In this document: in pieces, positions 4,226 to 26,443 of the stretch
Numbering within the stretch: position 1 is the stretch's first letter
Layout of the letters: each line of letters begins with the position of its first letter
Assembly: GCA_013214965.1 (NCBI GenBank)
Contig: JABSRU010000004.1
Coordinates: 62,001 to 126,000, forward strand
Direction: 5' to 3'
Length of the DNA stretch: 64,000 nucleotides
Origin: Gammaproteobacteria bacterium
GTDB taxonomy: Bacteria; Pseudomonadota; Gammaproteobacteria; Enterobacterales; Psychrobiaceae
The notes under the pieces: generated by a model
Told to the model about the DNA's origin: nothing
Databases searched by the model: none
What the model saw: the letters and a program-made list of their open reading frames with translations, nothing else
Position numbers and translations under genes: made by a program

Positions 4226-5095
4226 TCACTTAGCAAAAACGACTGTTTTCTTTTGGTGTAAAAATATTCGGTGTTCAATGTGGCAACGTACTGCGCGGGA
4301 GAGGGTTAAACATTCAATATCACGACCCTTAGCGGCTAAGTCTTTCGGATAATAACTGTGGTCAACGGTTTCGACGCCTTGGCTAATGATGGGTCCTTCG
4401 TCGAGGTCATCGCTGACATAGTGAGCCGTAGCACCCACTAATTTTACCCCACGGTCGTAGGCTTGATAATAAGGCCTAGCACCCTTAAATCCGGGCAATA
4501 ACGAATGGTGAATATTAATCGCTTTACCGGATAGTTTTTGACACATTTCGTTCGATAACACTTGCATATAACGCGCTAACACCACTAAATCGGCCTTGGA
4601 GTCTTGAATAATCTGCCAGACCTGTGCTTCTTGCTCAGGTTTAGTGTCTTTACTAATAGGTAAGTGGTAATAGGGAATGCCATGCCATTTCGCCAGAGCT
4701 TCCAAGTCGGGGTGATTGGAGATTATCGCCGGAATTTCAATTGCTAAATCACCGGTACGATAACGATATAATAAGTCATTAAGGCAATGATCGTGCTTGG
4801 ACACCATGATCACGACTTTGGCTTTATAAGCGCTCGACGCTAACTGCCATTGCATATTAAAGGCGCTAGCACGTTCGTTAAATTCACGCTCAAATAGCGC
4901 AAGGTCGAAGGGTTGCTCGTTATTGGGCCTAAACTGGATTCGAATAAAAAAATGATTAACGTCGGTATCATCAAAGGAATGAATTTCGTTAATATAAAAT
5001 CCTTGTTGATATAAATAACGGGTCACGACATCAACCGTACCGGGCTGGCTGGGACAATGAGCGGTAATGATGTGGGTTTGTGAGGTATCGGACAT
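4226..5095 (-). CDS. purU: Formyltetrahydrofolate deformylase (copy 1)
   Basis: A 289-residue PurU protein: N-terminal ACT domain (about 8-85, starting HIITAHCPSQPGTVDVVTRY) and a C-terminal formyltransferase fold with HHSLLPGFKGARPYYQAYDRG and the AHYVSDDLDEGPII segment that carries the catalytic Asp. It hydrolyses 10-formyl-THF to formate and THF, regenerating the folate acceptor used by sarcosine oxidase. It follows soxG by 82 bp. A paralogue (20321-21199) occupies the same position behind the second soxG. The two proteins are colinear and nearly identical around the active site. PurU attached to sox operons is a known arrangement in Pseudomonas (purU2). Confidence 0.93.
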   Translation of the reverse strand: MSDTSQTHIITAHCPSQPGTVDVVTRYLYQQGFYINEIHSFDDTDVNHFFIRIQFRPNNEQPFDLALFEREFNERASAFNMQWQLASSAYKAKVVIMVSKHDHCLNDLLYRYRTGDLAIEIPAIISNHPDLEALAKWHGIPYYHLPISKDTKPEQEAQVWQIIQDSKADLVVLARYMQVLSNEMCQKLSGKAINIHHSLLPGFKGARPYYQAYDRGVKLVGATAHYVSDDLDEGPIISQGVETVDHSYYPKDLAAKGRDIECLTLSRAVRCHIEHRIFLHQKKTVVFAK

Positions 5096-5177
5096 GGTCG
5101 ATGATCCTTTGTTTCTCTGTGAAAATTGTCGGGTCGACGGATCAACCCGATCGGCACTAAAGTGCTGTTATCAATAT

Positions 5178-5774
5178 TTAAGTAATAGTTAGGCCGTATT
5201 CTTTGCTGCCTTGTTGGATCCATAACCAAATATAATCTGAAAAGCTTCGTCGTACCACTAATTGAAACTTGTTTTTCTCCAGTCTCAATATATGAGCACC
5301 CGCTTTCGCGAAGTTGGTGCCGATGACTTTACCGATTGGGAAACTGTCGAGGTGCAAATCATAACCGGTCGACTTTTTCAGAAGATCGATAACGTTGATG
5401 CCACTGAGTTCCAAAATGGTTTGTGCGCCGCTGATATCACTGACCGCAAAGTGACCTTTCAGGCAAAGGCGTAGCTTTTTCTCAACGTCATGCTCCGTAC
5501 CTGACGCCACCACGATGAGCCATTCATCGGGGGCTAGCCACATAATTTGTGCCCGTTCACCTTTGGCGCTGCTACAAGCACTTAGCGGCAGCTCAACGCC
5601 TAACACTTCTTTAATCCCTGCTAAAAATTCAGGATCTTGGCTATTACCGCGTAAATTGAGGTGACCCAAAAATTTCGCTTCATGTAATATTACGCCGCCA
5701 TCCCCAGATTGCCCGACTAAGTCATCGAGCTGAGCATGATGGAGTGGTGATTCCATATTGATTGAATTAGACAT
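5178..5774 (-). CDS. soxG: Sarcosine oxidase gamma subunit (copy 1)
   Basis: A 198-residue gamma subunit of heterotetrameric sarcosine oxidase, with a GcvT-like fold (LNLRGNSQDPEFLAGIKEVLG, IMWLAPDEWLIV, SDYIWLWIQQG). The start MSNSINMESPLHHAQ at 5774 is chosen because GGGAG lies just upstream and because it gives an 8-bp ATGTCTAA overlap with the soxA stop, the same as in copy 2. A longer reading frame starting inside soxA exists but would add residues alien to the family. The gamma chain is thought to help assemble the alpha-beta-delta core. Its product is needed with SoxB, D and A for sarcosine to glycine conversion. Confidence 0.9.
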   Translation of the reverse strand: MSNSINMESPLHHAQLDDLVGQSGDGGVILHEAKFLGHLNLRGNSQDPEFLAGIKEVLGVELPLSACSSAKGERAQIMWLAPDEWLIVVASGTEHDVEKKLRLCLKGHFAVSDISGAQTILELSGINVIDLLKKSTGYDLHLDSFPIGKVIGTNFAKAGAHILRLEKNKFQLVVRRSFSDYIWLWIQQGSKEYGLTIT

Positions 5775-8700
5775 TTTGACGGTCTCCCTTGGGATCATAA
5801 AATACTGGGCTGCAAATTTCAGCTTCAACGGTGGTGCCATCACTCAATGGCAAAAATACACTTTGTCCTTTGCGGCTAATGCCACCTTTGACCACAGCAA
5901 GAGCAAATGAATAACCCATGCAAGCACTGTAATAACTTGAGGTAACATGACCGACCATGGTCATTGGGATCGGCTGATCTTTTTCAAATACAATTTGCGC
6001 CCCTTCCGGTAACACAAATTTAGGATCTTTGGGTTTCAAACCGACCATTTGCTTACGATCATCACGTTTGTTATCGAAACGAGTCCATGAACGCTTACCT
6101 ATAAAGCTAAATTCTTTCTTCTTACCAACCACCCAATCCATATCAAGATCCTGCGGCGTGACCGAGCCATCCGTATCTTGCCCGACAATGATAAAGCCTT
6201 TTTCTGCCCGTAGAATGTGCATGGTTTCTGTGCCGTAAGGGGTAATATCGAATTCTTGTCCCGCTGCCATCACTGCTTGCCATGTATGCATGCCATAGTT
6301 GGCCTGAACGTTGATTTCGAAGGATAGCTCACCGGTGAAGGAAATCCGGAAAATCCGTGCTTTAACGCCAGCGACGGTTGCCTCAATCCAGTCCATGTAA
6401 CGGAAGTTGTCATTACTGACATCAACATCACAAATTTTCTCTAATACCTTACGGCTGTTCGGGCCAGAAATTGTCATGGTTGACCAATGATCGGTAACCG
6501 TTGAAAAGTACACCTCCAATTCTGGCCATTCGGTTTGATGCCACAGCTCTAGCCATTGTAAAACTCCGGCTGCACCGCCAGTAGTCGTGGTCATGATAAA
6601 GCGATTTTCACCGAGACAGGCAGTAACTCCATCGTCAAACACCATACCGTCTTCTTTACACATCACGCCATAGCGACATTTACCAACGGCCAATTTACTC
6701 CATGGGTTAGTGTAAATACGGTTTAAGAATTCGCGAGCATCTTTACCTTGAATGTCTATTTTACCTAAGGTTGAGGCATCGAGAATACCGACACTGTTGC
6801 GGGTTGCTAAACATTCGCGCTCTAATGCTTGTTGCATTGTTTCGCCTGTTTTAGCGAAATACCATGGTCGTTTCCATTGGCCAACATCTTCAAATTCTGC
6901 ACCGTTATCAAGGTGCCATTTGTGCATTGCACTAAATCTCGCCGGATCAAAAAGGTGCTTAACATCGGCTCCCGCAAGCGCACCAAAGGTGGTTGGCGTA
7001 TACATTGGTCGGAAAATAGTCGTGCCGGTTTCAGGAATGGTTTTGTTTAATGATTTAGCGGTAATCGCCATGCCATTAATGTTACCTAATTTACCCTGAT
7101 CGGTACCAAACCCCAGTGCCGTGTAGCGTTTTACATGCTCAATCGACTCAAACCCTTCACGGTTAGCCAGTTCAATCCCTGCGGCAGTGACATCGTTTTG
7201 GTAATCGACAAACTGTTTCGGGGCGCGACTCGTTGGCTTACTGTGGGGAATATGGAATAAAGCCATCGCTGGATCTTCTTGTGGATCGTTAATCAGCGGT
7301 AAAATACTCGCATAACTGCCATCACCTTTGCCAGCGTCTTGCGCGGCAGTAGATCCCGTTTTAAAGCCATCGCTAATCACATTCGAAAGCGCATAAACGC
7401 CAGATAAACCACCACAAATATGCTGTTGTTGTACTGTTTCACCGGGAACGAATCCCGCAATATCATCGTTCCAGACTGGTCGTGAACCCGTATGGGATGA
7501 TAAATGGATCACCGGACTCCAGCCGCCTGAGCTGGCTACTGTGTCACAAGAATAATGAGAGATGGCGCTAGATACGCTATGATTTTCTGCATTAATCGCC
7601 GCAACCTCGACGCCTTTAACGCGTTTGCTTCCTTTAACATTAATCACGCCTTGACCAAACAGAACCTTAATGCCTAATGCTTGGGCTTGTTGTACTAATT
7701 CACCGTTAGAAGTTGTACGGGTATCAACAATCGCTACCACTTTACGGCCAGCTTGATGCCAGTCGATTGCGGTTTTATAAGCGTTATCATTGGTGGTCAT
7801 TAGCACCAATTCATTGCCCGGTACGACACCGTAGCGATTGATGTAGGTTGAAACGGCGTTTGCTAGCATACAGCCGGGCACGTCGTTATTACCATAAACT
7901 AATGGTCGTTCGTGAGCGCCGGTGGCTAAAATAACTTGCTTAGCCCGTACTTTATGTACACGTTGCCGAGAACTTGTCGTGACGTGTTCGCCCAAATGAT
8001 CGGTCCGACGCTCGTTAATACCCACAAGGTTATGATCGTAATAACCAAAAACGGTGCTGCGTGGCAATAATAAAACATTGCCCATTGTGGTCAGTTTATC
8101 GACAATATCTTTAACCCACAGGCTTGGTAATTGACCATCAATAGCTTGTGTACTACAGAGTAAGTGACCACCGAATTCATTTTGCTCGTCACTAATGATC
8201 ACTCGCGCGCCAGTTTCTGCTGCCGCTAATGCCGCCGCTAATCCAGCAGGGCCAGCGCCAACAATCATGACATCACAATGATGATGCATTTTATCGTATT
8301 CGTCGGGATCTGGTTGTTGTGGACTACAGCCTAAACCAGCACCTTTTCGGATCAGTTTTTCATAGGACATCCACAGTGATTGTGGGTACATAAAGGTTTT
8401 ATAGTAGAAACCTGGGGGCATCATTGCTCCACCGATTTTACCAAGACCCGCCATTAAATCAAAATCGACATTGGGCCAACCGTTGGTCGAACTGGCCGTT
8501 AATCCTTGATAAAGCTCGGTTTGGGTCGCCCGTGGATTAGGAATTGTGGTTGCTTGGGTCGAACCCACTTGAAAAATAGCGTTGGGTTCTTGTGAATCAC
8601 AAGTGATGATGCCACGGGGACGCGAGTATTTAAAACTGCGACCAATAACATCAACGCCATTGGCTAATAATGCGGAGGCAATCGTATCACCTTCATAACC

Positions 8701-8793
8701 CTGGTAGGTTTTACCATTAAAGATAAACGTTAAAGGCCGGTTGCGGTTGATATGTTGATTAGCAGCCGCTGCTACGCGATTTACTTGTGTCAT
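5767..8793 (-). CDS. soxA: Sarcosine oxidase alpha subunit (copy 1)
   Basis: A 1008-residue alpha subunit, normal family length. Order of domains: N-terminal ferredoxin-like region (about 15-110, FNGKTYQGYEGDTIASALLA) lacking cluster cysteines, an NAD-binding Rossmann fold at about 170-200 (VMIVGAGPAGLAAALAAAE), and a C-terminal GcvT-like folate domain from about residue 600 (PMYTPTTFGAL … GQDTDGSVTPQDLDMDW). With SoxB it oxidises sarcosine and passes the C1 unit to THF, giving glycine, 5,10-methylene-THF and H2O2. It overlaps soxD by ATGA and soxG by 8 bp, implying translational coupling. Compared with copy 2 (21861-24884), the folate half is almost unchanged while the NAD half holds most substitutions. 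Confidence 0.95.
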   Translation of the reverse strand: MTQVNRVAAAANQHINRNRPLTFIFNGKTYQGYEGDTIASALLANGVDVIGRSFKYSRPRGIITCDSQEPNAIFQVGSTQATTIPNPRATQTELYQGLTASSTNGWPNVDFDLMAGLGKIGGAMMPPGFYYKTFMYPQSLWMSYEKLIRKGAGLGCSPQQPDPDEYDKMHHHCDVMIVGAGPAGLAAALAAAETGARVIISDEQNEFGGHLLCSTQAIDGQLPSLWVKDIVDKLTTMGNVLLLPRSTVFGYYDHNLVGINERRTDHLGEHVTTSSRQRVHKVRAKQVILATGAHERPLVYGNNDVPGCMLANAVSTYINRYGVVPGNELVLMTTNDNAYKTAIDWHQAGRKVVAIVDTRTTSNGELVQQAQALGIKVLFGQGVINVKGSKRVKGVEVAAINAENHSVSSAISHYSCDTVASSGGWSPVIHLSSHTGSRPVWNDDIAGFVPGETVQQQHICGGLSGVYALSNVISDGFKTGSTAAQDAGKGDGSYASILPLINDPQEDPAMALFHIPHSKPTSRAPKQFVDYQNDVTAAGIELANREGFESIEHVKRYTALGFGTDQGKLGNINGMAITAKSLNKTIPETGTTIFRPMYTPTTFGALAGADVKHLFDPARFSAMHKWHLDNGAEFEDVGQWKRPWYFAKTGETMQQALERECLATRNSVGILDASTLGKIDIQGKDAREFLNRIYTNPWSKLAVGKCRYGVMCKEDGMVFDDGVTACLGENRFIMTTTTGGAAGVLQWLELWHQTEWPELEVYFSTVTDHWSTMTISGPNSRKVLEKICDVDVSNDNFRYMDWIEATVAGVKARIFRISFTGELSFEINVQANYGMHTWQAVMAAGQEFDITPYGTETMHILRAEKGFIIVGQDTDGSVTPQDLDMDWVVGKKKEFSFIGKRSWTRFDNKRDDRKQMVGLKPKDPKFVLPEGAQIVFEKDQPIPMTMVGHVTSSYYSACMGYSFALAVVKGGISRKGQSVFLPLSDGTTVEAEICSPVFYDPKGDRQNV

Positions 8794-9089
8794 GATTGCC
8801 CCTTCTCACTGGCGGTAACGCTGGGCTGTTGACCCATTTTGTAGGATTCCATGATCTGATAAGTCACGGTGTTTCTGGTGACATTGAAATATTTTCGACA
8901 GCCATGGGTGTGCAGCCACATCTCATGATGCAAGCCGCGGGGATTTTTACGGAAAAATAAATAGCGTGCCCATTCTTCATCGCTTAACACCTCTGGATCT
9001 AACGGCCGGACAATGTGCGCTTGTCCCGCCGGGCTAAATTCTTCTTCTTCGCGCATTTCTTCACAATAAGGACAATGGATAAGTAACAT
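8790..9089 (-). CDS. soxD: Sarcosine oxidase delta subunit (copy 1)
   Basis: A 99-residue zinc-binding delta subunit. The expected ligands are visible: Cys6 and Cys9 in HCPYC, and His60/Cys64 in WLHTHGCRKYF. It is a structural subunit of the tetrameric enzyme. Its stop overlaps the soxA start (ATGA) and it follows soxB by 21 bp. Against copy 2 (98 aa) I count nine changes in the first 94 residues plus a different tail. Confidence 0.93.
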   Translation of the reverse strand: MLLIHCPYCEEMREEEEFSPAGQAHIVRPLDPEVLSDEEWARYLFFRKNPRGLHHEMWLHTHGCRKYFNVTRNTVTYQIMESYKMGQQPSVTASEKGQS

Positions 9090-9110
9090 GATAATTCCTC
9101 TTAGCGGGGT

Positions 9111-10361
9111 TTAGTGGGCAACGCCGGCTGCGCCGTGTTCGTCGATCAATTGACCCGATGTAAAACGATCAATATTAAAGGGTTTCGCTAATGGATGCGG
9201 ATCATCATGGGCGATTGTATGGGCAAAAACATGCCCAGCGCCTGGTGTCGCTTTAAAACCACCAGTGCCCCAGCCACAGTTAAAATAGAGCCCTTTAATG
9301 TGGGTCTTCGAAATAATGGGACAGGCGTCTGGGCAAGTGTCGACAATGCCACCCCAAGCTCGATTAAGACGAACTCGGCTAAAGATTGGAAACATTTCAA
9401 TGATCGCGGCAATCGTATGTTCAACCACGTTAAATGAGCCACGTTGCCCGTAACCTAAGTAACCATCAATGCCTGCGCCAATCACTAAATCCCCTTTATC
9501 CGATTGACTAACATAACCATGAACATGATTTGACATTACCACGGTATCCAAGATGGGTTTAAGGGGTTCCGAGACCATGGCTTGGAGCGGATATGATTCG
9601 AGCGGTAAATCCATCCCGACCATTTTTGCTAATACCCCTGAATTACCAGCAGCGACACAAGCCACTTTACCGGCGGAGATAAAGCCACGATTGGTTTCAA
9701 CACCAACCACGGCGCCATCTTTCACGCGAATATCGGTCACTTCGGTTTGCTGTAATAAATCAACGCCTAAATTATTGGCGGCACGGGCGAAGCCCCAAGC
9801 CACGGCATCGTGCCGCGCTGTGCCAGCTCGTGCTTGCCAAGAAGCGCCCATGACCGGATAACGAGCACCTTTAGAACAGTCTAAAATAGGCACCATTTCT
9901 TGCACTTGCGCAGTGGTTAACACTTCGGAATCAATACCATTTAAACGGTTAGCATTAACACGTCGTTCAATGTCACGCATGTCTTGCAGGGTGTGCCCAA
10001 GGTTTAAAACGCCGCGTTGGCTAAACATCAGGTTATAGTTGAGCTCTTGGGCTAAACCTTCCCATAACTTTAAGGAATGCTCATAAAGATGAGAGGCTTC
10101 ATCCCACAAGTAATTTGAACGAACAATGGTGGTATTACGCGCGGTATTACCGCCGCCAAGGTAACCTTTTTCGACCACTGCAATATTGGTGATGCCATGC
10201 TCTTTAGCGAGGTAGTAGGCTGTTGCTAAGCCATGCCCACCGCCCCCGATTATCACGACGTCATAATGCTTTTTTGGGATTGGATTATTCCAAACTCGTT
10301 GCCAGTTCTCGTGATAGGTTAATGAATGGGTTAATAAACCAAATCCTGAATATTGTTGCAT
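9111..10361 (-). CDS. soxB: Sarcosine oxidase beta subunit (copy 1)
   Basis: A 416-residue flavoprotein of the DAO fold. The FAD-binding motif is at about 35-55 ([18 protein letters not shown]). The His in [12 protein letters not shown] (about residue 184) corresponds to the family's covalent FMN attachment site. It carries the sarcosine-oxidising site and is the first gene of the soxBDAG-purU-fdhA run. An AAGGTAAAGG ribosome site precedes the ATG. By eye it differs from copy 2 (25193-26443) at 20 of 416 positions, while silent changes are frequent, so the duplication is not recent and both copies are under purifying selection. Confidence 0.95.
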
Positions 10362-13419: not shown

Positions 13420-13472
13420 ACCAATTACATTAAGTTTGTGATCTTATTGGGCAATCATTTAACGTAATTGGT
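13420..13472. repeat. Inverted repeat with ACCAATTA ends (possible miniature repeat)
   Basis: ACCAATTACATTAA at 13420-13433 faces TTAACGTAATTGGT at 13459-13472: 14-base arms with one mismatch around 25 bases. ACCAATTA-type inverted repeats are familiar as dispersed intergenic elements in marine gammaproteobacteria. It ends 46 bp before the BCCT start. No second full copy was seen in this window. Confidence 0.5.
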
Positions 13473-13518
13473 ATTGGTAAACACTCTTCATTTAATAATA
13501 ACTAAAAGGTGGTTTATC

Positions 13519-15111
13519 ATGGTTGCAGATCGAGGTCTGTTAAAGGGCATGAATCCTGTTACAACCGTTATATCGATGGTAATGATCTCGTTGTTTGTGT
13601 TGGCCGGTGTCTTTTTTACCGAACAATCGGCGGCGTTGTTTACAGCAGTATCGGGTTGGATTTTGGATTATCTCAAATGGTATTACATTGGCGTAGTAGC
13701 AATTTTTCTGTTTTTCTGTATCTGGCTAGCGTTTAGCCGTTATGGGAATTTACGCTTAGGCGATGACGATTCGCGGCCGGAATATAGCAACTTTTCTTGG
13801 TTTTCGATGTTATTTAGCGCAGGAATGGGTATTGGTTTAGTGTTTTGGTCGATTGCTGAGCCTATTTATCACTTCCAGAGTAATCCGTTTATTACCGAGG
13901 GCTTAACGCCTGAAGCGGCTCAAGTCGCGATGCGATTAACCTTCTTTCACTGGGGACTTCATCCGTGGGCTATCTATGTCATTGTTGGTTTGTCTTTATC
14001 TTATTTTGCCTACCGAAAAAAATTACCCTTAACCCCTCGCTCGGCGCTTTATCCATTAATTGGCGATAAAATGTATGGCCCTATTGGTCATGCAGTCGAT
14101 ATTTTAGCGGTGTTTGGTACGGTATTTGGTGTGGCGACATCGTTAGGTTTAGGTGTGACACAAATGAACACCGGTCTTAATACGATGTTTGGAATGGAAG
14201 TCTCGCTCGGAAATCAAATTATATTGATTGCTGTCATTTCTGCGATTGCGACTATTTCAGTGGTGTCAGGTGTTGGTAAAGGCGTTAAGATTTTATCTGA
14301 AGTTAACATGTGGCTAACCATTGGTATTTTGGTTTTCTTACTCTGTTTTGGTCCGACCCGTTATTTGTTGGGCAGCTTATTGCAAAACACCGGTGATTAT
14401 CTAGGGCATATTTTAGCGCTGAGTACTTGGACCGATGCTAACGATAATAGCAAATGGCAAACTTGGTGGACTGCATTTTACTGGGGCTGGTGGATGGCTT
14501 GGGCACCTTTTGTTGGGATGTTTATTGCTCGAATCTCAAAAGGACGAACTATTCGTGAGTTTATCGTTGGTGTGCTATTGGTACCGACACTCTTAGGTTT
14601 CGTGTGGTTAACGTTGTTTGGTAGTACCGCTATTTACATTGAGTTGTTCCATCATGTCATGAATGACGCCGGTGAATCGGTCGCCGCGGTAGGTCAAGCG
14701 GGTATTGTCGATGCGGTTAAAGCTGATGTGACGCAAGCCTTATATGTCACGCTTGATAAACTTGATGCGGGTATCTTCGGTACCGTTGCTGCATTTTTAG
14801 CGACGTTGTTAATTGCGACTTACTTTATTACCTCATCAGATTCTGGCACATTAGTGGTCACTACTATCTTGTCGATGGGACATGAAAACCCTCCGACACC
14901 TCATCGAGTCTTTTGGGGCTTAGGTGAGGGGGCCGTTGCTGCTATTCTGCTGTTGGTCGGTGGACTTAAAGCGTTGCAAACGGCATCAATCATTGCGGCA
15001 TTACCGTTCTCATTCGTGATGATTATTATGATGTGGGGTTTGGTTAAGTCATTACGACAGGAGGGCGTAGTCCCTTTGGTGCATCGCCAGTCTAAACTTG
15101 GAAGTACTTAA
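13519..15111 (+). CDS. BCCT family transporter, probably glycine betaine uptake
   Basis: A 530-residue, roughly 12-helix carrier. Family motifs are the glycine-rich AGMGIGLVFWSIAEP (about 98-112) and the tryptophan-rich GWWMAWAPFVGMFIARISKG (about 321-340), which lines the quaternary-ammonium site in BetP-type proteins. The ATG at 13519 has AAAGGTGG upstream; an in-frame earlier ATG would add 17 non-family residues. The C-terminus is short, without the long charged tail of osmosensing BetP, which fits a nutritional rather than osmostress carrier. The position directly behind gbcA argues for glycine betaine as substrate. A second BCCT gene is cut by the left window edge. Confidence 0.9.
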   Translation: MVADRGLLKGMNPVTTVISMVMISLFVLAGVFFTEQSAALFTAVSGWILDYLKWYYIGVVAIFLFFCIWLAFSRYGNLRLGDDDSRPEYSNFSWFSMLFSAGMGIGLVFWSIAEPIYHFQSNPFITEGLTPEAAQVAMRLTFFHWGLHPWAIYVIVGLSLSYFAYRKKLPLTPRSALYPLIGDKMYGPIGHAVDILAVFGTVFGVATSLGLGVTQMNTGLNTMFGMEVSLGNQIILIAVISAIATISVVSGVGKGVKILSEVNMWLTIGILVFLLCFGPTRYLLGSLLQNTGDYLGHILALSTWTDANDNSKWQTWWTAFYWGWWMAWAPFVGMFIARISKGRTIREFIVGVLLVPTLLGFVWLTLFGSTAIYIELFHHVMNDAGESVAAVGQAGIVDAVKADVTQALYVTLDKLDAGIFGTVAAFLATLLIATYFITSSDSGTLVVTTILSMGHENPPTPHRVFWGLGEGAVAAILLLVGGLKALQTASIIAALPFSFVMIIMMWGLVKSLRQEGVVPLVHRQSKLGST

Positions 15112-15144
15112 CTACATTTAAGATTGGTTTAAAAATAAAGTAAT

Positions 15145-15182
15145 AAAAAACCAGCGCGGTCATACTCGCTGGTTTTTTTTTG
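15145..15182 (+). terminator. Terminator after the BCCT gene
   Basis: AAAAAACCAGCG pairs with CGCTGGTTTTTT around an 11-base loop and is followed by further Ts, a strong bidirectional-type terminator about 35 bp beyond the stop. The 200 bp behind it hold only a short open frame ending near 15325 with no recognisable product, and no start or ribosome site. Confidence 0.85.
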
Positions 15183-15383: not shown

Positions 15384-16040
15384 TTAATTTGGGTATACAA
15401 TGAGTCCAAGTTGTTCAAGTAATTGCTCCTGTTGCCAAGTACAAATCTTAACTCCACTAAGGTCGATTTTTCGTGGATCTAAGCCATCTAATTCCGTATG
15501 GCTTAGATTACAACCTTGCAGGTTAAATTGACCCCAACAATCTTCTGAAAATGTACTCCGACTTAAATCAGATTCTTTAAAAGATGCATTTTGTAGGTTT
15601 GTACCAATCCATTTGTTTTCTGATAAATCACATTTTTCAATACATTGACGCTCGAGATTTGCGTAAGATAAATTGCATCCGCTAATCAATGCGGAGCAAA
15701 AATATATGCTGTTGCTAACCTGATTTAAGAAACTGGTTTGTGCGAAATTGACTCCTTTTAAATCACAATCTCTAAATGTAATCCCAAAACATTTTGCACC
15801 ACTGAAATCAGACATTGCGAGTTGGCAATTTATAAATGTACAATCGCGGAGATCACTATAATTAAGATAGCAACCTTCAGTCGTTCCCTGTTCTATAAAT
15901 ATACAATCAAGAAACTGAGTATCTCTAAGGTTAGCACGAGTAAAATCACATCGATAAAACTTACAATGATTAAAAATTGATTCACTAATATCTTGATTAG
16001 AAAAGTCAATTTGATTGAATATTTCGTTATTTTTGATCAT
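15384..16040 (-). CDS. qnr: Qnr family pentapeptide repeat protein, QnrS-like
   Basis: A 218-residue protein built almost wholly of pentapeptide repeats (A/C-D/N-L/F-X-X), giving a right-handed quadrilateral beta-helix. It has the exact length of QnrS, and many stretches match my memory of QnrS, for example DFTRANLRDTQF, FCSALISGCNLSYAN, ENKWIGTNL and HTELDGLDPRKIDLSG, plus the ending LGLIVYPN. Qnr proteins are DNA mimics that bind gyrase and topoisomerase IV and reduce quinolone susceptibility. Chromosomal members in aquatic gammaproteobacteria are considered the source of plasmid genes. GGAGTGAGGA lies before the ATG. It is a single-gene unit; no LexA box (CTG-N10-CAG) was seen upstream. 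Confidence 0.88.
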   Translation of the reverse strand: MIKNNEIFNQIDFSNQDISESIFNHCKFYRCDFTRANLRDTQFLDCIFIEQGTTEGCYLNYSDLRDCTFINCQLAMSDFSGAKCFGITFRDCDLKGVNFAQTSFLNQVSNSIYFCSALISGCNLSYANLERQCIEKCDLSENKWIGTNLQNASFKESDLSRSTFSEDCWGQFNLQGCNLSHTELDGLDPRKIDLSGVKICTWQQEQLLEQLGLIVYPN

Positions 16041-16303
16041 AAATAGTCCTCACTCCTAAAGAGTCGACAGACTATCACTTGAACATGAGAATGCAATAAA
16101 AACAAACCTATATAAATCAATGAATTAAAAGGTGTTTATTTGCCGTGTTAAGCTGCCTAGCCGTTGCGTGTTGCGGCGTTCGCTGATTTATCTTAGTCGG
16201 CGATCGAATAAAATACTTTAAGCGGTTATCGCCACTTAAGGGGGCCTAGGTCTTGGCGTTGTTTTTTCATTTACGGTATAGCTTGATATGCTTTGTTTTT
16301 ATG

Positions 16304-16711
16304 CTAGCACTTGAAATTTGGTTGCTCGTTTAGAAGATTGATTAAGGGCAAAAATAACGGTTGCGGCAAGTTATCCAATGAACACCACTGCCATTGTTTA
16401 CATTTGTCCGGCTCCATAATTTGAGCTTCATTATCATGGCATGAAGCGATGACGAACAGCGTGATATAGTGTTTAGCTTCTTGCTCAAAGATGTCGTTGG
16501 TAAATTGGAATTTTTTGATGGCCGTTAAAGTTAGACCTGTTTCCTCTAACACTTCCCGCGCCGCACATTGTTCGATACTCTCGCCTAGCTCTAAATGACC
16601 GCCAGGGGTTGCCCAAGTATTAGCGCCATGTGAGCCAATGCGCTCTCCTAATAAAATGCGATTATTCCTCAAGATAATCACAGCCACTCCAACCCGTACT
16701 GCTTTATTCAT
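16304..16711 (-). CDS. Nudix hydrolase
   Basis: A 135-residue Nudix protein. The Nudix box GGHLELGESIEQCAAREVLEETGL (about 37-60) has all the catalytic Glu and Arg residues. The layout (VGVAVIILRNNRILLGER … NTWATPGGHLE) resembles NUDT15/MTH2-like nucleotide diphosphatases, which act on modified or excess NTPs; the substrate is not certain. It is the last gene of an apparent three-gene operon, 4 bp behind the pilin-like gene. Confidence 0.85.
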   Translation of the reverse strand: MNKAVRVGVAVIILRNNRILLGERIGSHGANTWATPGGHLELGESIEQCAAREVLEETGLTLTAIKKFQFTNDIFEQEAKHYITLFVIASCHDNEAQIMEPDKCKQWQWCSLDNLPQPLFLPLINLLNEQPNFKC

Positions 16712-16715
16712 TATG

Positions 16716-17162
16716 TTATTTTTCCTTCTCTTTCAGGTATTCGCATGGTGGTAAATGAATAGAAATTTTTGTGTAATTTGGGGTACTGCATTTCCATTTA
16801 AATCCCTTGTTCTTGTTATAACTGGGCCTTAATTGAAAAGCCCCATTCTCTACGCCACTTTTTTTAGTGAGTAGCACCGTAATAACGCCACCTTTTGAGA
16901 TGGTAAGACTGTTTAGGGAGCGATCCTTAAATTTTTCTGGCGCAGGTAAGTGCATCTCGTTGTTTGATGAGGGGAACCTGCCATGGTTTAGATGATAATG
17001 CTCTACTTTATATTTGTTTATAATTGCACTATTAAGCCCTTCGCTGATGTGAGCAATCGTATAATGTTGTACGCCACGTCGTTTATCGAGTAACTTAATC
17101 GTTAGGCTTGATAATAACGTGACAATAAAAATCACCACGAATACTCTAAAAACTAATCTCAT
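16716..17162 (-). CDS. Membrane-anchored protein with pilin-like C-terminal domain
   Basis: 148 residues: an N-terminal transmembrane helix (about 5-23, VFRVFVVIFIVTLLSSLTI) and a periplasmic domain that reads like the globular part of type IV major pilins: HLNHGRFPSSNNEMHLPAPE, then ISKGGVITVLL, GAFQLRPS, FKWKC and a final LPPC that would close the pilin disulphide loop. The N-terminus lacks the prepilin signature (Gly before Phe, Glu at +5), so it should not be processed by PilD or polymerise normally. It sits between a DUF2007 gene (7-bp gap) and a Nudix gene (4-bp gap). The domain call comes from recalled motifs only. Confidence 0.55.
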   Translation of the reverse strand: MRLVFRVFVVIFIVTLLSSLTIKLLDKRRGVQHYTIAHISEGLNSAIINKYKVEHYHLNHGRFPSSNNEMHLPAPEKFKDRSLNSLTISKGGVITVLLTKKSGVENGAFQLRPSYNKNKGFKWKCSTPNYTKISIHLPPCEYLKEKEK

Positions 17163-17475: not shown

Positions 17476-17553
17476 AAAATGTTTCCAGCTAGTTTTAGTT
17501 AACTATAACCTAGCTGGAGTTGAGGCGAATTACAATATTTAAGGCTGATCAAT

Positions 17554-17815
17554 TTATGCTTTGAGTGTTAATACCACACGACCACAATATCTCCTTTGTT
17601 TCAGGCTTGAATGCCAAAGCTTAAGGAGCGATCTGAACCAACAAAATCGATGGCACCAGTAACACCGCCTCGGGTGCTTTTAATGAGTGCTTTAACGGCA
17701 TTTTTATCGGCCGGTTCAATCACTGTATCAGCACCTTCATCGAGGGCTAGTTGTCTTTTTGCTGGATCAATATCAGCGACAATAATTTCACAATTGAGTA
17801 AGGCTTTAGCCATTG
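17554..17815 (-). pseudogene. Remnant of zinc-type alcohol dehydrogenase
   Basis: On the minus strand the frame KALLNCEIIVADIDPAKRQL … GGVTGAIDFVGS is clearly the cofactor domain of a medium-chain alcohol dehydrogenase. It is broken downstream; after a gap the family's C-terminal GRVVLTLKA and a stop appear at about 17583-17554. The N-terminal catalytic half is absent. The relic abuts, tail to head, another relic on the opposite strand, so a deletion or rearrangement joined two unrelated gene fragments here. Confidence 0.7.
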
Positions 17816-17839
17816 ATAGATCTGATAATTCGAGGCCGC

Positions 17840-18175
17840 AAGCAAGAGGGCATTAGCTTTTTATTAACTGAGATGAAAACGCTAGGGGGCACAGTCAAGC
17901 CGATTATGACCTTAGGCGGTCGCCGTGAAGTCAATGAAGTACCCACGAACGCACTAATATTCCGATGTAGTAGTGTCAAAGCAACATTTGACCTCGTTAT
18001 TCTCATTGTTAGGTGAATCGGCTAATGGGATGGCTGATATACGATAAGATAGGGAGTTTATGGTACGTGTTATTACCACTGAAGTGCAGCAGATAATCGA
18101 CGGGCGATACCTTGAAGTTTCGGGGATGTACGCACTGCCATTTGTGCCCGAGCAATATGATATATGCAGACGTTG
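17840..18175 (+). pseudogene. Remnant of acyl-CoA dehydrogenase
   Basis: Two fragments in different frames: GISFLLTEMKTLGGTVKPI followed by GGRREVNEV (about 17845-17945), and QQIIDGRYLEVSGMYALPF with flanking residues (about 18060-18165). Both match the middle and C-terminal parts of acyl-CoA dehydrogenases (the family reads …MKTPGI-VRPI…EVNEVFF… and …GTEIQQ…). About 110 bp between them is unrelated and the substrate-binding end is missing. The gene is clearly decayed, no function. Frame shift and deletions were seen directly; family assignment is by recalled motif. Confidence 0.65.
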
Positions 18176-18332
18176 ACATCATTGACCCACACTTTGACGA
18201 ATAAAAACTTAATTTCGCACAGTGGTATTGTGGAGGTTTTGGTTAGACTAATTATTTAACGATTGGCACTGGTATTTTAAGCGGAAATTGCTATGGTGTT
18301 GTGCTATTTATTGATTTGATTGTGGTATTTAA

Positions 18333-20320: not shown

Positions 20321-21199
20321 TTACTTGGCAAAGACGATAGTTTTTTTATCATGACGAAATATGCGATGCTCTATGTGATAACGGATAGCTCGAGATAAGG
20401 TTAAACACTCGATATCACGTCCTTTTGCTGCTAAATCTTGCGGGTAATAGCTGTGATCTACCGTTTCAACACCTTGAGTAATAATTGGTCCTTCATCAAG
20501 GTCATCGCTGACATAATGTGCTGTAGCACCAACAAGTTTTATACCACGGTCATAAGCTTGGTAATAAGGTCTTGCGCCTTTAAAACCTGGTAATAAAGAA
20601 TGATGAATGTTAATCGCTTTTCCTGATAATTTTTTACACATATCACTCGATAATACTTGCATATAACGTGCTAATACGACCAAGTCGGTTTCACAATCTT
20701 GAATTATTTCCCATACCTTAGCCTCTTGCTCAGGTTTTGTCTCTTTACTAATTGGCAGGTGGTAGTATGGAATATTATGCCATTTAGCTAATTCCTCTAA
20801 ATCCGGATGATTAGAGATGATCGCTGGAATTTCAATGTTTAAGTCACCTGTTCGATATCGATAGAGTAAATCATTGAGGCAATGGTCATGTTTCGACACC
20901 ATAATAACAACGTTAGATTTAAAGGGACTAGACGCCAATGTCCATTGCATACCAAATGCACTAGCTCGCTGATTGAACTCATGGCAGAACTGAGCGCGAT
21001 CAAACGCTTGTTCATCGTCAGGCCTAAATTCTATGCGGATAAAGAAATGCTTTTTATCCGTGTCATCAAATGAGTGAATTTCATTAATATAAAACCCTTG
21101 CTCAAACAGAAATCGAGTAACTACATCCACGGTACCCGGTTGGCTAGGGCAGTTGGCCGTTATAATGTGGGTTTGTGGTGTTGATGTAATATCGGACAT
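20321..21199 (-). CDS. purU: Formyltetrahydrofolate deformylase (copy 2)
   Basis: 292 residues, colinear with the copy at 4226-5095: ACT domain then formyltransferase domain with HHSLLPGFKGARPYYQAYDRG and AHYVSDDLDEGPII. Most differences lie in the ACT domain and linker (for example FDRAQFCHEFNQR for FDLALFEREFNER), which could mean different regulation by glycine or methionine, the usual PurU effectors. It hydrolyses 10-formyl-THF to formate. It follows soxG copy 2 by 69 bp. Unlike copy 1 it has no fdhA behind it. Confidence 0.92.
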   Translation of the reverse strand: MSDITSTPQTHIITANCPSQPGTVDVVTRFLFEQGFYINEIHSFDDTDKKHFFIRIEFRPDDEQAFDRAQFCHEFNQRASAFGMQWTLASSPFKSNVVIMVSKHDHCLNDLLYRYRTGDLNIEIPAIISNHPDLEELAKWHNIPYYHLPISKETKPEQEAKVWEIIQDCETDLVVLARYMQVLSSDMCKKLSGKAINIHHSLLPGFKGARPYYQAYDRGIKLVGATAHYVSDDLDEGPIITQGVETVDHSYYPQDLAAKGRDIECLTLSRAIRYHIEHRIFRHDKKTIVFAK

Positions 21200-21268
21200 T
21201 TTTGATCCTTTATTTTTAATAAATAGCCCGTTAAAATAATGACTCTATTAAAAAGGGCTTTATAATCT

Positions 21269-21868
21269 CTAGACAATAGTTAAACCGCATTCTTTACAGC
21301 CATGCTGGATCCACAGCCATATATAGTCGGAAAAACTCCGTCGAATAACTAATTGGAATTTGTTTTCCTCTAGTCGCAAAATATGCGCGCCTGCTTTTGC
21401 AAACGTCGTGCCGACGACTTTACCAATAGGGAAGCTCTCTAAATGAAAATCATAACCACTGGATTTTTTCATGAGTTCAATAACATGGCTACCACTCAAC
21501 TCAAGTATGGTTTGTGCACCACTAATATCGCTAACGGCAAAGTGACCTTTAAGTTGGGCGCGTAGTTTTAACTCAACATCGTATTCACTTCCTGAGCCAA
21601 CCATCACCAACCATTCATCTGGGGCGAGCCATATGATTTGAGCCAACTCACCTGTTGCGCTGGTACAGGGGGCGGTAGGAAGGTCTATTCCAAATACTTT
21701 TTTGATACCTGATAAAAAATCAACGTCTTGTGCATTGCCTCGTAAATTGAGATGACCTAAGTATTTTGATTCATGTAAGAGAACACCACCACCAGCACTT
21801 GATTGACCGACTAAACTGTCTAGTTGTGCATGGTGTAATGGTGATTCCATATTAATTGAATTAGACAT
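21269..21868 (-). CDS. soxG: Sarcosine oxidase gamma subunit (copy 2)
   Basis: 199 residues, same fold and start (MSNSINMESPLHHAQ) as copy 1, with an identical 8-bp overlap with the soxA stop. It differs from copy 1 more than the other subunits do, mainly in the first half (SLVGQSSAGGGVLLHESKYLG for DLVGQSGDGGVILHEAKFLG). The role in assembling the tetrameric oxidase is taken from the family. Confidence 0.9.
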   Translation of the reverse strand: MSNSINMESPLHHAQLDSLVGQSSAGGGVLLHESKYLGHLNLRGNAQDVDFLSGIKKVFGIDLPTAPCTSATGELAQIIWLAPDEWLVMVGSGSEYDVELKLRAQLKGHFAVSDISGAQTILELSGSHVIELMKKSSGYDFHLESFPIGKVVGTTFAKAGAHILRLEENKFQLVIRRSFSDYIWLWIQHGCKECGLTIV

Positions 21869-24800
21869 TTTGACGGTCTCCCTTTGGATCATAGAATACT
21901 GGGCTGCAAATTTCAGCCTCAACGGTGGTGCCATCACTTAATGGTAAAAAGACACTCTGCCCCTTACGGTTGATGCCACCTTTAACGACAGCAAGGGCGA
22001 ATGAGTAGCCCATACATGCGCTGTAGTAACTTGAAGTAACATGCCCAACCATTGTCATCGGAATGCTTTGGTTTGGTTCAAAGACTATTTGTGCACCTTC
22101 TGGCAAAACAAATTTTGGGTCTTTTGGCTTTAGCCCAACCATTTGTTTACGATCGTCACGTTTGTTGTCATAACGAGTCCAAGATCGTTTACCAATAAAG
22201 CTAAATTCTTTTTTCTTACCAACAACCCAATCCATGTCTAAATCTTGTGGTGTGACTGAACCATCAGTATCTTGACCAACAATAATAAAGCCCTTTTCAG
22301 CGCGTAGAATATGCATGGTTTCAGTGCCATAAGGTGTGATATTAAACTCTTTGCCAGCTGCCATTACTGCTTGCCAAGTATGCATGCCATAATTAGCTTG
22401 AACGTTAATTTCAAATGATAATTCACCGGTGAATGAGATTCGGAATATCCGCGCTTTAACACCCGCAACGTTGGCTTCAATCCAGTCCATATATTTAAAG
22501 TTATCGTTGCTTACATCAATATCACATATTTTTTCTAACACCTTACGACTATTAGGACCTGAAATAGTCATGGTTGACCAATGATCGGTGACGGTTGAAA
22601 AGTAAACTTCAAGTTCTGGCCATTCTGTTTGATGCCATAATTCTAACCATTGCAACACGCCAGCAGCGCCGCCTGTGGTGGTGGTCATAATAAAGCGATT
22701 TTCGTCAAGACAAGCAGTTACACCATCATCAAAAACCATGCCGTCTTCTTTACACATCACACCATAGCGACATTTTCCAACGGCTAATTTGCTCCATGGG
22801 TTAGTGTAAACACGGTTTAAAAATTCACGAGCATCTTTGCCCTGAATATCAATTTTACCTAAGGTTGATGCATCTAGAATACCGACACTATTTCGGGTCG
22901 CCAAACATTCACGTTCTAGTGACTGTTGCATCGTTTCGCCCGCTTGTGGGAAATACCATGGACGCTTCCATTGACCGACGTCTTCAAATTCAGCGCTATT
23001 ATCGAGATGCCATTTATGCATCGCGCTAAAACGAACAGGATCAAATAAATGCTTAACGTCGCTACCAGCCAGAGCACCAAAGGTAGTTGGTGTATACATT
23101 GGACGGAAAATGGTAGTACCCGTCTCTGGAATAGTTTTGCCCAGAGATTTGGCGGTAATCGCCATGCCGTTAATGTTGCCTAATTTACCTTGATCAGTTC
23201 CAAAGCCGAGTGCGGTGTAGCGTTTAACATGCTCTATTGACTCAAAGCCTTCGCGGTTTGCGAGCTCGATGCCAGCAGCTGTCACATCATTTTGATAATC
23301 GACAAACTGCTTGGGTGCTCGGCTTGTCCGTTTGCTGTGTGGTATGTGGAACAACGCCATTGAAGCATCTTCTTGTGGATCGACGATATGTGGCTGCGAG
23401 CCTTCATAGCGTCCTTCACCTTTGTCTGCCGCTTGTGCAGCTTTTGCCCCAGTAGAAAAACCATCGTTTATCACTTTGGATAATGAATAAACTCCCTCTA
23501 AACCGCCACAGATATGTTGTGCTTGAACCGTTTCACCCGGAACAAACCCCGCGATATCATCCTTCCATACTGGGCGAGACCCCGTATGTGATGAAAGGTG
23601 TATTACCGGACTCCAACCACCAGAGCTAGCAACGGTATCACATGAAAAGTGTTTAGCTGAACCGGTAAGACAGTGATTATTCACATTGATTGGTGCGATA
23701 TCGACACCTTTAACGCGTTTGCTGCCTTTAACATTAATCACACCATGACCAAATATGATATCGATGTCCAATTGCTTAGCTTGTTTAACTAGCTCACCAT
23801 TTGATGTCGCACGCGTATCAACAATAGCAATGACCTGTCGCCCTGCCTGATGCCAATCAATCGCCGTTTTATATGCGTTATCATTAGTGGTCATTAACAC
23901 TAGTTCGTTACCTGGCACCACCTCGTAACGATTTATGTAGGTCGAGACAGCATTGGCTAACATACACCCTGGCACATCATTATTGCCATAAACTAAAGGG
24001 CGTTCGTGAGCACCTGTCGCTAAAATCACTTGTTTTGCTCTTACTTTATGCATTCGCTGGCGAATCGTCTTCGATTTATGTTCACCGAGGTGATCGGTGC
24101 AGCGCTCATTGATGCCAAGTAAATTATGATCGTAATACCCAAAAACGGTACTACGTGGCAGCAATAACACATTGTCCATATTTGAAAGTTTTTCGACGAT
24201 TTTTTCTACCCAAAGATTAGGTAGCTGACCGTCTATTTGCTGTGTGCTGCATAAAAGGTGACCGCCAAATTCATTTTGTTCATCGCTAATAATGACTCGG
24301 GCACCAGTGTCGGCCGCCGCTAAGGCCGCGGCCAAACCTGCAGGGCCGGCACCTACGATCATAACATCACAATGGTGATGAATTTTATCATAGCTATCTG
24401 GGTCTGCTTGGGTTGGACTTGTGCCTAACCCAGCGCCTTTACGGATTAAATGCTCGTAAGACATCCATAATGATTGTGGATACATAAAGGTTTTATAATA
24501 AAAACCAGGGGGCATCATTGAACCGCCCACTTTGCCTACCGTTGACATTAAATCAAAGTCGACATTCGGCCAGCCATTTGTCGACGTTGCGACTAAACCT
24601 TGATAAAGCTCTGTTTGAGTCGCTCGCGGATTAGGGATTGTGGTGGCTTGTGTTGAGCCCACTTGAAAAATTGCATTGGGCTCTTGTGAGTCGGCCGTGA
24701 TGATACCGCGTGGACGTGAATATTTAAAACTACGACCGACGACATTAACACCATTAGCAAGCAGGGCAGAGGCAACAGTATCTCCTTCGTATCCTTGATA

Positions 24801-24884
24801 TTCTTTACCGTTGAAAGTAAAGCTTAAAATACGGCTACGATTAATGTGTTTGCTTTTTGCTGCAATACGATTAACTTGTCTCAT
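21861..24884 (-). CDS. soxA: Sarcosine oxidase alpha subunit (copy 2)
   Basis: 1007 residues with the same domain order as copy 1: ferredoxin-like region, NAD Rossmann fold (VMIVGAGPAGLAAALAAAD) and C-terminal folate domain. The N-terminal half carries most substitutions, for example SKHINRSRILSFTFNGKEY, and the linker near residues 480-500 is reworked (AAQAADKGEGRYEGSQPHIV). The folate half is nearly identical in protein while silent sites differ widely. It overlaps soxD by one base (TAATG) where copy 1 uses ATGA. Confidence 0.95.
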   Translation of the reverse strand: MRQVNRIAAKSKHINRSRILSFTFNGKEYQGYEGDTVASALLANGVNVVGRSFKYSRPRGIITADSQEPNAIFQVGSTQATTIPNPRATQTELYQGLVATSTNGWPNVDFDLMSTVGKVGGSMMPPGFYYKTFMYPQSLWMSYEHLIRKGAGLGTSPTQADPDSYDKIHHHCDVMIVGAGPAGLAAALAAADTGARVIISDEQNEFGGHLLCSTQQIDGQLPNLWVEKIVEKLSNMDNVLLLPRSTVFGYYDHNLLGINERCTDHLGEHKSKTIRQRMHKVRAKQVILATGAHERPLVYGNNDVPGCMLANAVSTYINRYEVVPGNELVLMTTNDNAYKTAIDWHQAGRQVIAIVDTRATSNGELVKQAKQLDIDIIFGHGVINVKGSKRVKGVDIAPINVNNHCLTGSAKHFSCDTVASSGGWSPVIHLSSHTGSRPVWKDDIAGFVPGETVQAQHICGGLEGVYSLSKVINDGFSTGAKAAQAADKGEGRYEGSQPHIVDPQEDASMALFHIPHSKRTSRAPKQFVDYQNDVTAAGIELANREGFESIEHVKRYTALGFGTDQGKLGNINGMAITAKSLGKTIPETGTTIFRPMYTPTTFGALAGSDVKHLFDPVRFSAMHKWHLDNSAEFEDVGQWKRPWYFPQAGETMQQSLERECLATRNSVGILDASTLGKIDIQGKDAREFLNRVYTNPWSKLAVGKCRYGVMCKEDGMVFDDGVTACLDENRFIMTTTTGGAAGVLQWLELWHQTEWPELEVYFSTVTDHWSTMTISGPNSRKVLEKICDIDVSNDNFKYMDWIEANVAGVKARIFRISFTGELSFEINVQANYGMHTWQAVMAAGKEFNITPYGTETMHILRAEKGFIIVGQDTDGSVTPQDLDMDWVVGKKKEFSFIGKRSWTRYDNKRDDRKQMVGLKPKDPKFVLPEGAQIVFEPNQSIPMTMVGHVTSSYYSACMGYSFALAVVKGGINRKGQSVFLPLSDGTTVEAEICSPVFYDPKGDRQNV

Positions 24885-25180
24885 TATTTCACCTCTTGAC
24901 TAGCAGTGACACTAGGCTGTTGGCCCATTTTGTATGTTTCCATGATTTGATAAGTCACTGTATTTCTCGTCATGTTAAAATATTTGCGACAACCATGAGC
25001 ATGCAGCCATAGTTCGTGATGTAATCCGCGTGGATTTTTACGGAAAAATAAATAGCGTGCCCATTGCTCATCGCTTAGTTCTTCGGGGTTTAACGGACGC
25101 ACTATATGTGCCTGTCCAGCTGGACTAAACTCTTCTTCTTCGCGCTGCTCTTCACAATAAGGACATTTGATAAGTAACAT
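24884..25180 (-). CDS. soxD: Sarcosine oxidase delta subunit (copy 2)
   Basis: 98 residues. Zinc ligands Cys6 and Cys9 (KCPYC) and the HAHGC pair are preserved. The tail ends ASQEVK instead of ASEKGQS. It lies between soxB (12-bp gap) and soxA (1-base overlap). Confidence 0.93.
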   Translation of the reverse strand: MLLIKCPYCEEQREEEEFSPAGQAHIVRPLNPEELSDEQWARYLFFRKNPRGLHHELWLHAHGCRKYFNMTRNTVTYQIMETYKMGQQPSVTASQEVK

Positions 25181-25192
25181 AATTAATTCCTC

Positions 25193-26443
25193 TTAGTGGG
25201 CAACACCGGCTGCGCCGTGTTCATCAATGAGTTCGCCAGATGTAAAGCGATCAATACTAAATGGTTTAGCGAGAGGGTGTGGATCATCATGGGCGATAGT
25301 ATGTGCAAACACATGGCCCGCACCAGGTGTTGCTTTGAAGCCGCCAGTACCCCAACCGCAGTTAAAATAAAGTCCTTTAATATGGGTTTTAGAAATAATA
25401 GGACAAGCATCTGGACAGGTGTCAACAATCCCGCCCCATGCACGATTGAGGCGAACCCGACTAAAGATGGGAAACATTTCAATAATAGCGGCAATCGTGT
25501 GCTCAACCACGTTGAATGAACCGCGCTGTCCATAGCCCAAGTAACCATCAATACCAGCGCCAATCACTAAGTCGCCTTTATCTGATTGACTGATGTAGCC
25601 GTGTACATGATTTGACATCACGACGGTATTAAGGATTGGTTTTAACGGTTCCGATACCATCGCTTGTAGAGGGTGAGATTCAAGCGGTAATTCCATGCCA
25701 ACCATTTTTGCGATAACAGTCGAGTTGCCAGCGGCAACACAGGCTACTTTCCCAGCAGAAATAAAACCACGATTAGTCTCAACGCCAACGACTGCATCAT
25801 CTTTACGACGGATCCCTGTTACTTCTGTTTGTTGAAGCAAATCAACACCTAAAGCTGCAGCTGCGCGAGCAAAGCCCCAGGCAACTGCATCATGACGTGC
25901 AGTACCTGCACGGGCTTGCCATGAAGCCCCCAATACTGGGTAACGGGCATTTTTAGAGCAGTCTAAAATAGGTACCATTTCTTGAATTTGGGCCGTGGAG
26001 AGTACTTCACCGTCGATACCGTTTAGGCGGTTAGCGTTGACACGTCGCTCAATATCACGCATGTCTTGCAACGTATGACCAAGATTGAGCACACCTCGCT
26101 GGCTAAACATTAAATTATAATTAAGATCCTGAGCCAATCCTTCCCATAATTTTAATGAATGCTCATATAAATGAGAAGCTTCATCCCACAGATAATTAGA
26201 ACGCACTATCGTTGTGTTACGTGCTGTGTTACCACCACCTAGGTAGCCTTTTTCAACCACAGCGATATTAGTGATGCCATGTTCTTTAGCTAAATAATAG
26301 GCAGTTGCTAGACCATGCCCACCACCACCGATAATCACTACGTCATAGTGTTTTTTAGGGATTGGGTTATTCCACACCCTTTGCCAGTTTTCGTGGTAGG
26401 TTAATGAATGTTTTAACAAACCAAATCCAGAATATTGTTGCAT
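25193..26443 (-). CDS. soxB: Sarcosine oxidase beta subunit (copy 2)
   Basis: 416 residues, 20 differences from copy 1 counted by eye. The FAD motif and the FMN-linking His ([12 protein letters not shown]) are intact, so this copy should be active. Substitutions cluster around residues 195-250. It follows glyA by 105 bp on the same strand, reproducing the glyA-soxBDAG-purU order known in Pseudomonas. AAGGTAAGGG supports the start. Confidence 0.95.

Follow-up and report, generated by a model that had tools for sequence, protein, structure and literature searches.

Qnr proteins shield DNA gyrase against quinolone drugs. A gene of this family lies within the window, the 64,000-nucleotide stretch of DNA analyzed here, and raises the questions of which Qnr lineage it represents, how it reached this marine bacterium and what drives its transcription. 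An earlier sequence-only reading had described it as a probably resident, QnrS-like chromosomal gene. The 218-residue reading frame on which that description was based is real, and its strand, which was not given, is the minus strand; the frame is intact and runs from an ATG at 16040 to a TAA ending at 15384 (Table 1). The locus is now very probably best read as a functional chromosomal qnr of the Photobacterium/QnrVC branch, which would protect gyrase and which probably arrived horizontally with its own SOS-independent promoter region.

Table 1. Features of the qnr locus (positions within the window)
Feature	Positions	Strand	Basis
BCCT betaine/choline/carnitine transporter, converging on qnr	13468..15111	plus	orthologue (88-89%) in a congener, without qnr after it
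Terminator-like inverted repeat between converging BCCT and qnr	15142..15181		arms 93% complementary
qnr, encoding a Qnr-family pentapeptide-repeat protein of 218 aa (Photobacterium type, sister to QnrVC)	15384..16040	minus	ORF, family profile, tree, fold
Ribosome-binding site of qnr, AGGAGTGAGG	16048..16057	minus	sequence; good Shine-Dalgarno
Extended -10 element TGATAGTCT, 28 bp before ATG	16069..16077	minus	-10 hexamer identical to mapped qnrVC1 promoter (PMC2600354, PMC8876359)
-35-like hexamer TTGCAT, 16 bp before -10	16091..16096	minus	sequence, locus alignment
Conserved qnr upstream region including core promoter, ~93 bp	16069..16161	minus	multi-locus comparison; top own-genome site with clade-free model
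Weak terminator-like hairpin between Nudix gene and qnr	16218..16239	minus	hairpin search
Nudix hydrolase, upstream neighbor of qnr	16304..16711	minus	orthologues (~65%) in three congeners without qnr

Affiliation and predicted function of the Qnr protein

The product scores 338 bits against the curated NCBIfam profile of the Qnr equivalog (NF033086; cut-off of 240, residues 8 to 217) and is thus a genuine Qnr. It falls below the cut-offs of the named-subfamily profiles QnrVC (374 bits versus 460), QnrAS (361 versus 490) and QnrS (332 versus 460). Amino acid identity is 73% with the Qnr of Photobacterium profundum (QnrPP), 72% with that of P. frigidiphilum and 71% with that of P. indicum, followed by QnrVC4 (71%), QnrVC1 (69%), QnrS1 (63%), the plasmid-borne QnrS2 (62%), QnrA6 (60%) and QnrB1 (~41%); identity with any experimentally tested Qnr is only ~73%. 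The nearest family is therefore not QnrS, as the Photobacterium and QnrVC proteins are closer. The family search and QnrS1 comparison proposed as checks of the sequence-only reading therefore uphold Qnr membership and full QnrS length but not a specific QnrS affiliation.

A tree of 61 Qnr sequences places the window protein in a clade (support 97/86) with the three Photobacterium sequences, a copy from G157, a genome of another family, and copies in metagenome-assembled genomes labeled Robiginitomaculum (NORP54; locus L002) and Aliivibrio (NORP241; locus L005). The G157 gene is nearly identical to that of NORP54, and NORP241 is probably a mixed bin, as it contains two RpoD genes. QnrVC forms the sister group of this clade (96/86), and QnrS is placed elsewhere. 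A true QnrS-lineage gene is highly improbable, despite equal length, the identity with QnrS1 and the survival of a wider clade joining the window protein to QnrS and its Vibrionaceae relatives (p-AU 0.17): a clade of the window protein with QnrS1 and QnrS2 alone is rejected (p-AU 5e-5), the best tree separates the two lineages with the above support, and the QnrS profile score is far below its cut-off and lower than those for QnrVC and QnrAS. The window gene nevertheless resembles qnrS1 and qnrS2 in the absence of a LexA box, in its -10 element and in its upstream region. With the QnrVC family, found as integron cassettes in Vibrio and other bacteria, it shares the mapped promoter PqnrVC and the upstream region, but no attC-like inverted repeat was found downstream of it, and it lies outside any integron. 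The Photobacterium genes agree with it in length, clade and promoter region, whereas their gene neighborhoods are unrelated to that of the window and more than one-quarter of residues differ.

The AlphaFold model of the window protein (pLDDT 94, pTM 0.89) predicts the architecture of QnrB1 and AhQnr, a right-handed quadrilateral beta-helix that bears two loops and ends in a C-terminal helix. The closest PDB folds are indeed AhQnr (3pss) and QnrB1 (2xtw), both with a TM score of ~0.9; both share the two-loop fold, with 41 and 35% identity, respectively, in structural alignment. Mutation of F13, L38, G56, C72, C92, G96, C115, S116, S153, L159 or D188 reduces activity in other Qnr proteins (PMC2964730), and all 11 positions carry the wild-type residue in the window protein. 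QnrPP is cited as a quinolone resistance determinant in PMC2600354. Family, fold and conserved residues together lead us to infer gyrase protection. With its right-handed pentapeptide-repeat helix, its two loops and a dimerization helix at the C terminus, the protein would bind DNA gyrase, and topoisomerase IV, and would help the enzyme escape quinolone-type poisons, with low-level tolerance as the expected outcome.

A protein of this fold might instead mainly modulate gyrase or DNA topology under natural stress, e.g., cold or DNA-targeting metabolites, with quinolone protection as a by-product. This is conceivable, if somewhat less than probable: the bacterium carrying the window gene is environmental, the promoter region is of old date and occurs widely in bacteria without clinical exposure, and cold induction is reported for qnrA in Shewanella algae (Kim 2011, as cited in PMC10886550). 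Such a role is compatible with gyrase protection against quinolones as the main explanation, and the present evidence does not separate the two.

Genomic setting and origin of the gene

qnr is a single-copy gene in the 4.25-Mb genome (144 contigs, 95.7% complete, 3.25% contamination). Its location is chromosomal, as previously claimed, since the 193-kb contig also carries rpoD, dnaG and mdh, and the contig belongs to the genus, as the neighboring gbcA and BCCT genes have orthologues with 84 to 89% identity in one congeneric genome (G004). qnr probably forms its own transcript, given the hairpin on the Nudix side, of a type about equally common in shuffled sequence, and the inverted repeat on the BCCT side. 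Neither the Nudix nor the BCCT gene is retained as a candidate functional partner of qnr, as both are present without it in congeners.

Residence of the gene, which had been considered probable, is not supported. No qnr was found in the eight congeneric genomes, four of which have an estimated completeness of 100%, and their best pentapeptide matches are weak (~20 to 32% identity). The synteny comparison that had been suggested places the flanking genes in congeners without qnr: in G004, gbcB-gbcA-BCCT is followed by other genes, with neither qnr nor the Nudix gene, while the latter occurs in G005, G006 and G007, in a different setting in G005, the one examined. Furthermore, qnr has a GC content of 0.333, and its GC3 of 0.237 is the lowest in a set of 25 genes from the window. 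The neighborhoods of its closest relatives are unrelated; at the DNA level, the window resembles the loci of other clade members only in the gene itself and ~10 to 90 bp upstream. Absence from congeners, low GC3 and the unrelated contexts of relatives favor horizontal acquisition, which is probable on these sequence comparisons.

Vertical inheritance within the genus, with loss in the other sampled species, is in turn quite unlikely. It would accord with the absence of a recognizable mobile element adjoining qnr and with a contig carrying housekeeping genes and flanks that have congeneric orthologues, but it is opposed by the eight congeners lacking the gene, by its GC3 and by the nesting of the protein among Vibrionaceae-type sequences. 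The claim that no mobile element surrounds qnr holds for the material covered, as no transposase or integrase was recognized among window ORFs of at least 120 aa read by eye or by Pfam analysis of eight neighbors. The qnr locus showed no LexA box, attC or transposon; an integron cassette was rejected, the only downstream feature being the terminator-like inverted repeat. Capture of cassettes is possible in this organism, as two integron integrases scoring above the family cut-off are encoded on other contigs (G000:C123:143108-144055 and G000:C117:710-1651). The gene is thereby a further environmental qnr from beyond the usual reservoirs, apparently gained by a genus otherwise without it.

The window contains additional features near qnr. 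Upstream of the Nudix gene lie adjacent genes for a pilin-like 148-aa protein (PF00114, 35 bits; 16716-17162) and a DUF2007 protein. The noncoding stretch 17480-18330 seems to contain a decayed fragment of a zinc-type alcohol dehydrogenase (minus-strand reading at ~17600-17850, by eye), and this apparent remnant points to earlier rearrangement next to qnr. purU-soxG-soxA-soxB-like genes occur as two diverged direct copies (4226-10361 and 20321-26443) 16.09 kb apart, with 75 to 82% nucleotide identity in matched blocks; these flank the gbcB/gbcA/BCCT/qnr/Nudix/MFS genes, and G004 has one such copy in the 40-kb stretch compared.

Relatives of the window gene lie in varied surroundings. On a 36-kb contig of G157 (L137 6728-13004, G157:C23), the nearest copy lies close to genes for a tyrosine recombinase and a CARB-like class A beta-lactamase; this environmental genome may carry a mobile resistance region there. 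In P. profundum (L020 99-2394), genes resembling the Zot and secretin genes of a filamentous phage are located ~3.6 kb upstream of qnr, the secretin having a GspD-type match and Zot being a reading by eye.

A conserved region upstream of qnr genes

qnr loci of Vibrionaceae, Shewanella, Psychromonas and Colwellia, as well as QnrVC and QnrS, share an upstream region. Its consensus approximates TTTGnnGCCTTAAAATGGCnATTTTAGG..TTTTAAnTTGTTGTTTTTAAnGG.TTTnnTTTTnTTG, followed by ~15 to 18 bp, TGnTAGTCT and then 23 to 40 bp to the ATG. The window version reads ...GCAGCTTAACACGGCAAAT...CTTTTAATTCATTGATTT...GGTTTGTTTTTATTGCAT-N16-TAGTCT, with TGA immediately before TAGTCT (16161-16069, minus strand), and matches 26 of the 31 columns that are conserved in at least 80% of the other loci. 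Across 30 loci, pairwise identity is ~0.50 in the 125-bp upstream region versus 0.28 at fourfold-degenerate codon sites and 0.36 farther upstream. QnrS1 and QnrVC both carry the region, and, among plasmid records at ≥99% identity, which largely represent one recent expansion, the qnrS1 gene occurs in 1967 and its upstream stretch in 1962.

The conserved region coincides with the mapped promoter PqnrVC, whose core (TTGAGA...TAGTCT) has a start located by 5'RACE according to PMC2600354 and PMC8876359. In PqnrVC (Fonseca & Vicente 2008, 2012), the TAGTCT -10 hexamer is preceded by TGN and lies 28 to 29 bp before the ATG, as in the window, and the window gene has a PqnrVC-type promoter, as judged from the position of TGATAGTCT and the match to an independent sequence model. 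PqnrVC was published as the core promoter of the qnrVC cassette, whereas the conserved ~60 bp farther upstream, of which no description was found in the literature searched, is also present on chromosomal qnr genes of many families. The core promoter is already known, and what is new is the ~93-bp upstream region, common to qnr genes of many families, with many marine bacteria among the carriers, and present almost nowhere else.

Specificity for qnr was assessed at several scales. The independent model, built from 21 loci with the clade of the window left out, ranks the window site first in its own genome (36.8 bits, E 1.4e-8; next site, 18.3 bits). A regulon search of the same genome gave no second convincing site (next best, 19.9 versus 52.1 bits). 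In 388 genomes of the order, a 28-locus model detected 40 sites at E ≤ 1e-5, 38 of them directly before qnr by coordinates, one before a qnr interrupted by an IS66-like element and one before a Bcr/CflA-like MFS gene, so that 39 of the 40 strong sites precede a qnr. Recovery of qnr sites was expected, as many of the detected genes were among those used to build the model or are closely related to them; the information lies in the detection of almost nothing else. Almost nothing was found among 368 other genomes of the class-wide sample either, and a regulon was rejected, since neither the genome that holds the window nor the part of this sample beyond the order offered another convincing site. 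Approximately half of the 80 qnr-bearing genomes lack a site at E ≤ 1e-5, mainly those of the Aeromonas-type lineage and those with the native family f2 genes. More important than the gene itself is the upstream region, which is qnr specific and common to chromosomal, integron and plasmid copies.

The site before the Bcr/CflA-like efflux MFS gene, in a single genome of another family (L193 1299-1399; G034:C17:152298-152398, minus strand), scores 31 bits (E 8e-7). No comparably strong site was found before such an MFS gene in 10 other genomes of that family.

Possible SOS-independent regulation

qnrB is under LexA control (PMC10886550). As the sequence-only reading had it, no LexA box (CTGT-N8-ACAG, ≤1 mismatch) is present in 16041-16300, and QnrB/QnrD-type SOS regulation was rejected; the window as a whole contains 15 such matches versus 17.7 expected. 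The further claim of that reading, regulation different from that of qnrB, is supported by the presence of the conserved QnrVC/QnrS-type promoter region. The gene would have arrived with this promoter region, consisting of an extended -10, sigma-70-type promoter and, upstream of it, a conserved A/T-rich stretch that accompanies qnr, and the region would drive qnr independently of LexA.

Two other modes of action were considered for the upstream stretch. A transcribed RNA element was rejected, as RNAalifold predicts no base pair for 28 upstream sequences and the conserved block is upstream of the mapped start. The spacing of T-tracts is nonrandom (lags 10 to 15), but curvature by phased A-tracts was also rejected, being predicted as weak (mean z 1.1; window z 1.0) in a wedge model with assumed angles; curvature is therefore not claimed, and no physical sensor is supported.

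PMC5444012 and PMC6003256, citing Okumura 2011, report that quinolones induce qnrS without SOS. For this response the conserved upstream region is a candidate, and it would probably account for the induction of qnrS1 and qnrVS1 by gyrase inhibitors, which is reported to be independent of SOS. As qnrS1 responds in Escherichia coli, the factor involved would need to be general, either RNA polymerase together with DNA topology or a DNA-binding protein that is conserved. With regard to the inducing signal and the working of the upstream part, we infer, tentatively and as a rather doubtful proposition, that the ~60 bp upstream of the -35 may be a dedicated element through which qnr responds directly to gyrase inhibition or the resulting topology change without LexA. 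Such an element would have persisted in many families of a single order, remained intact in plasmid qnrS1 and integron qnrVC and once become attached to a Bcr/CflA-like efflux gene. The region provides a defined stretch for testing the cause of SOS-independent qnrS induction by quinolones.

In G120 (L192 1118-4449), an IS66-like insertion splits a qnr closely related to that of G157, and the upstream region is still intact.
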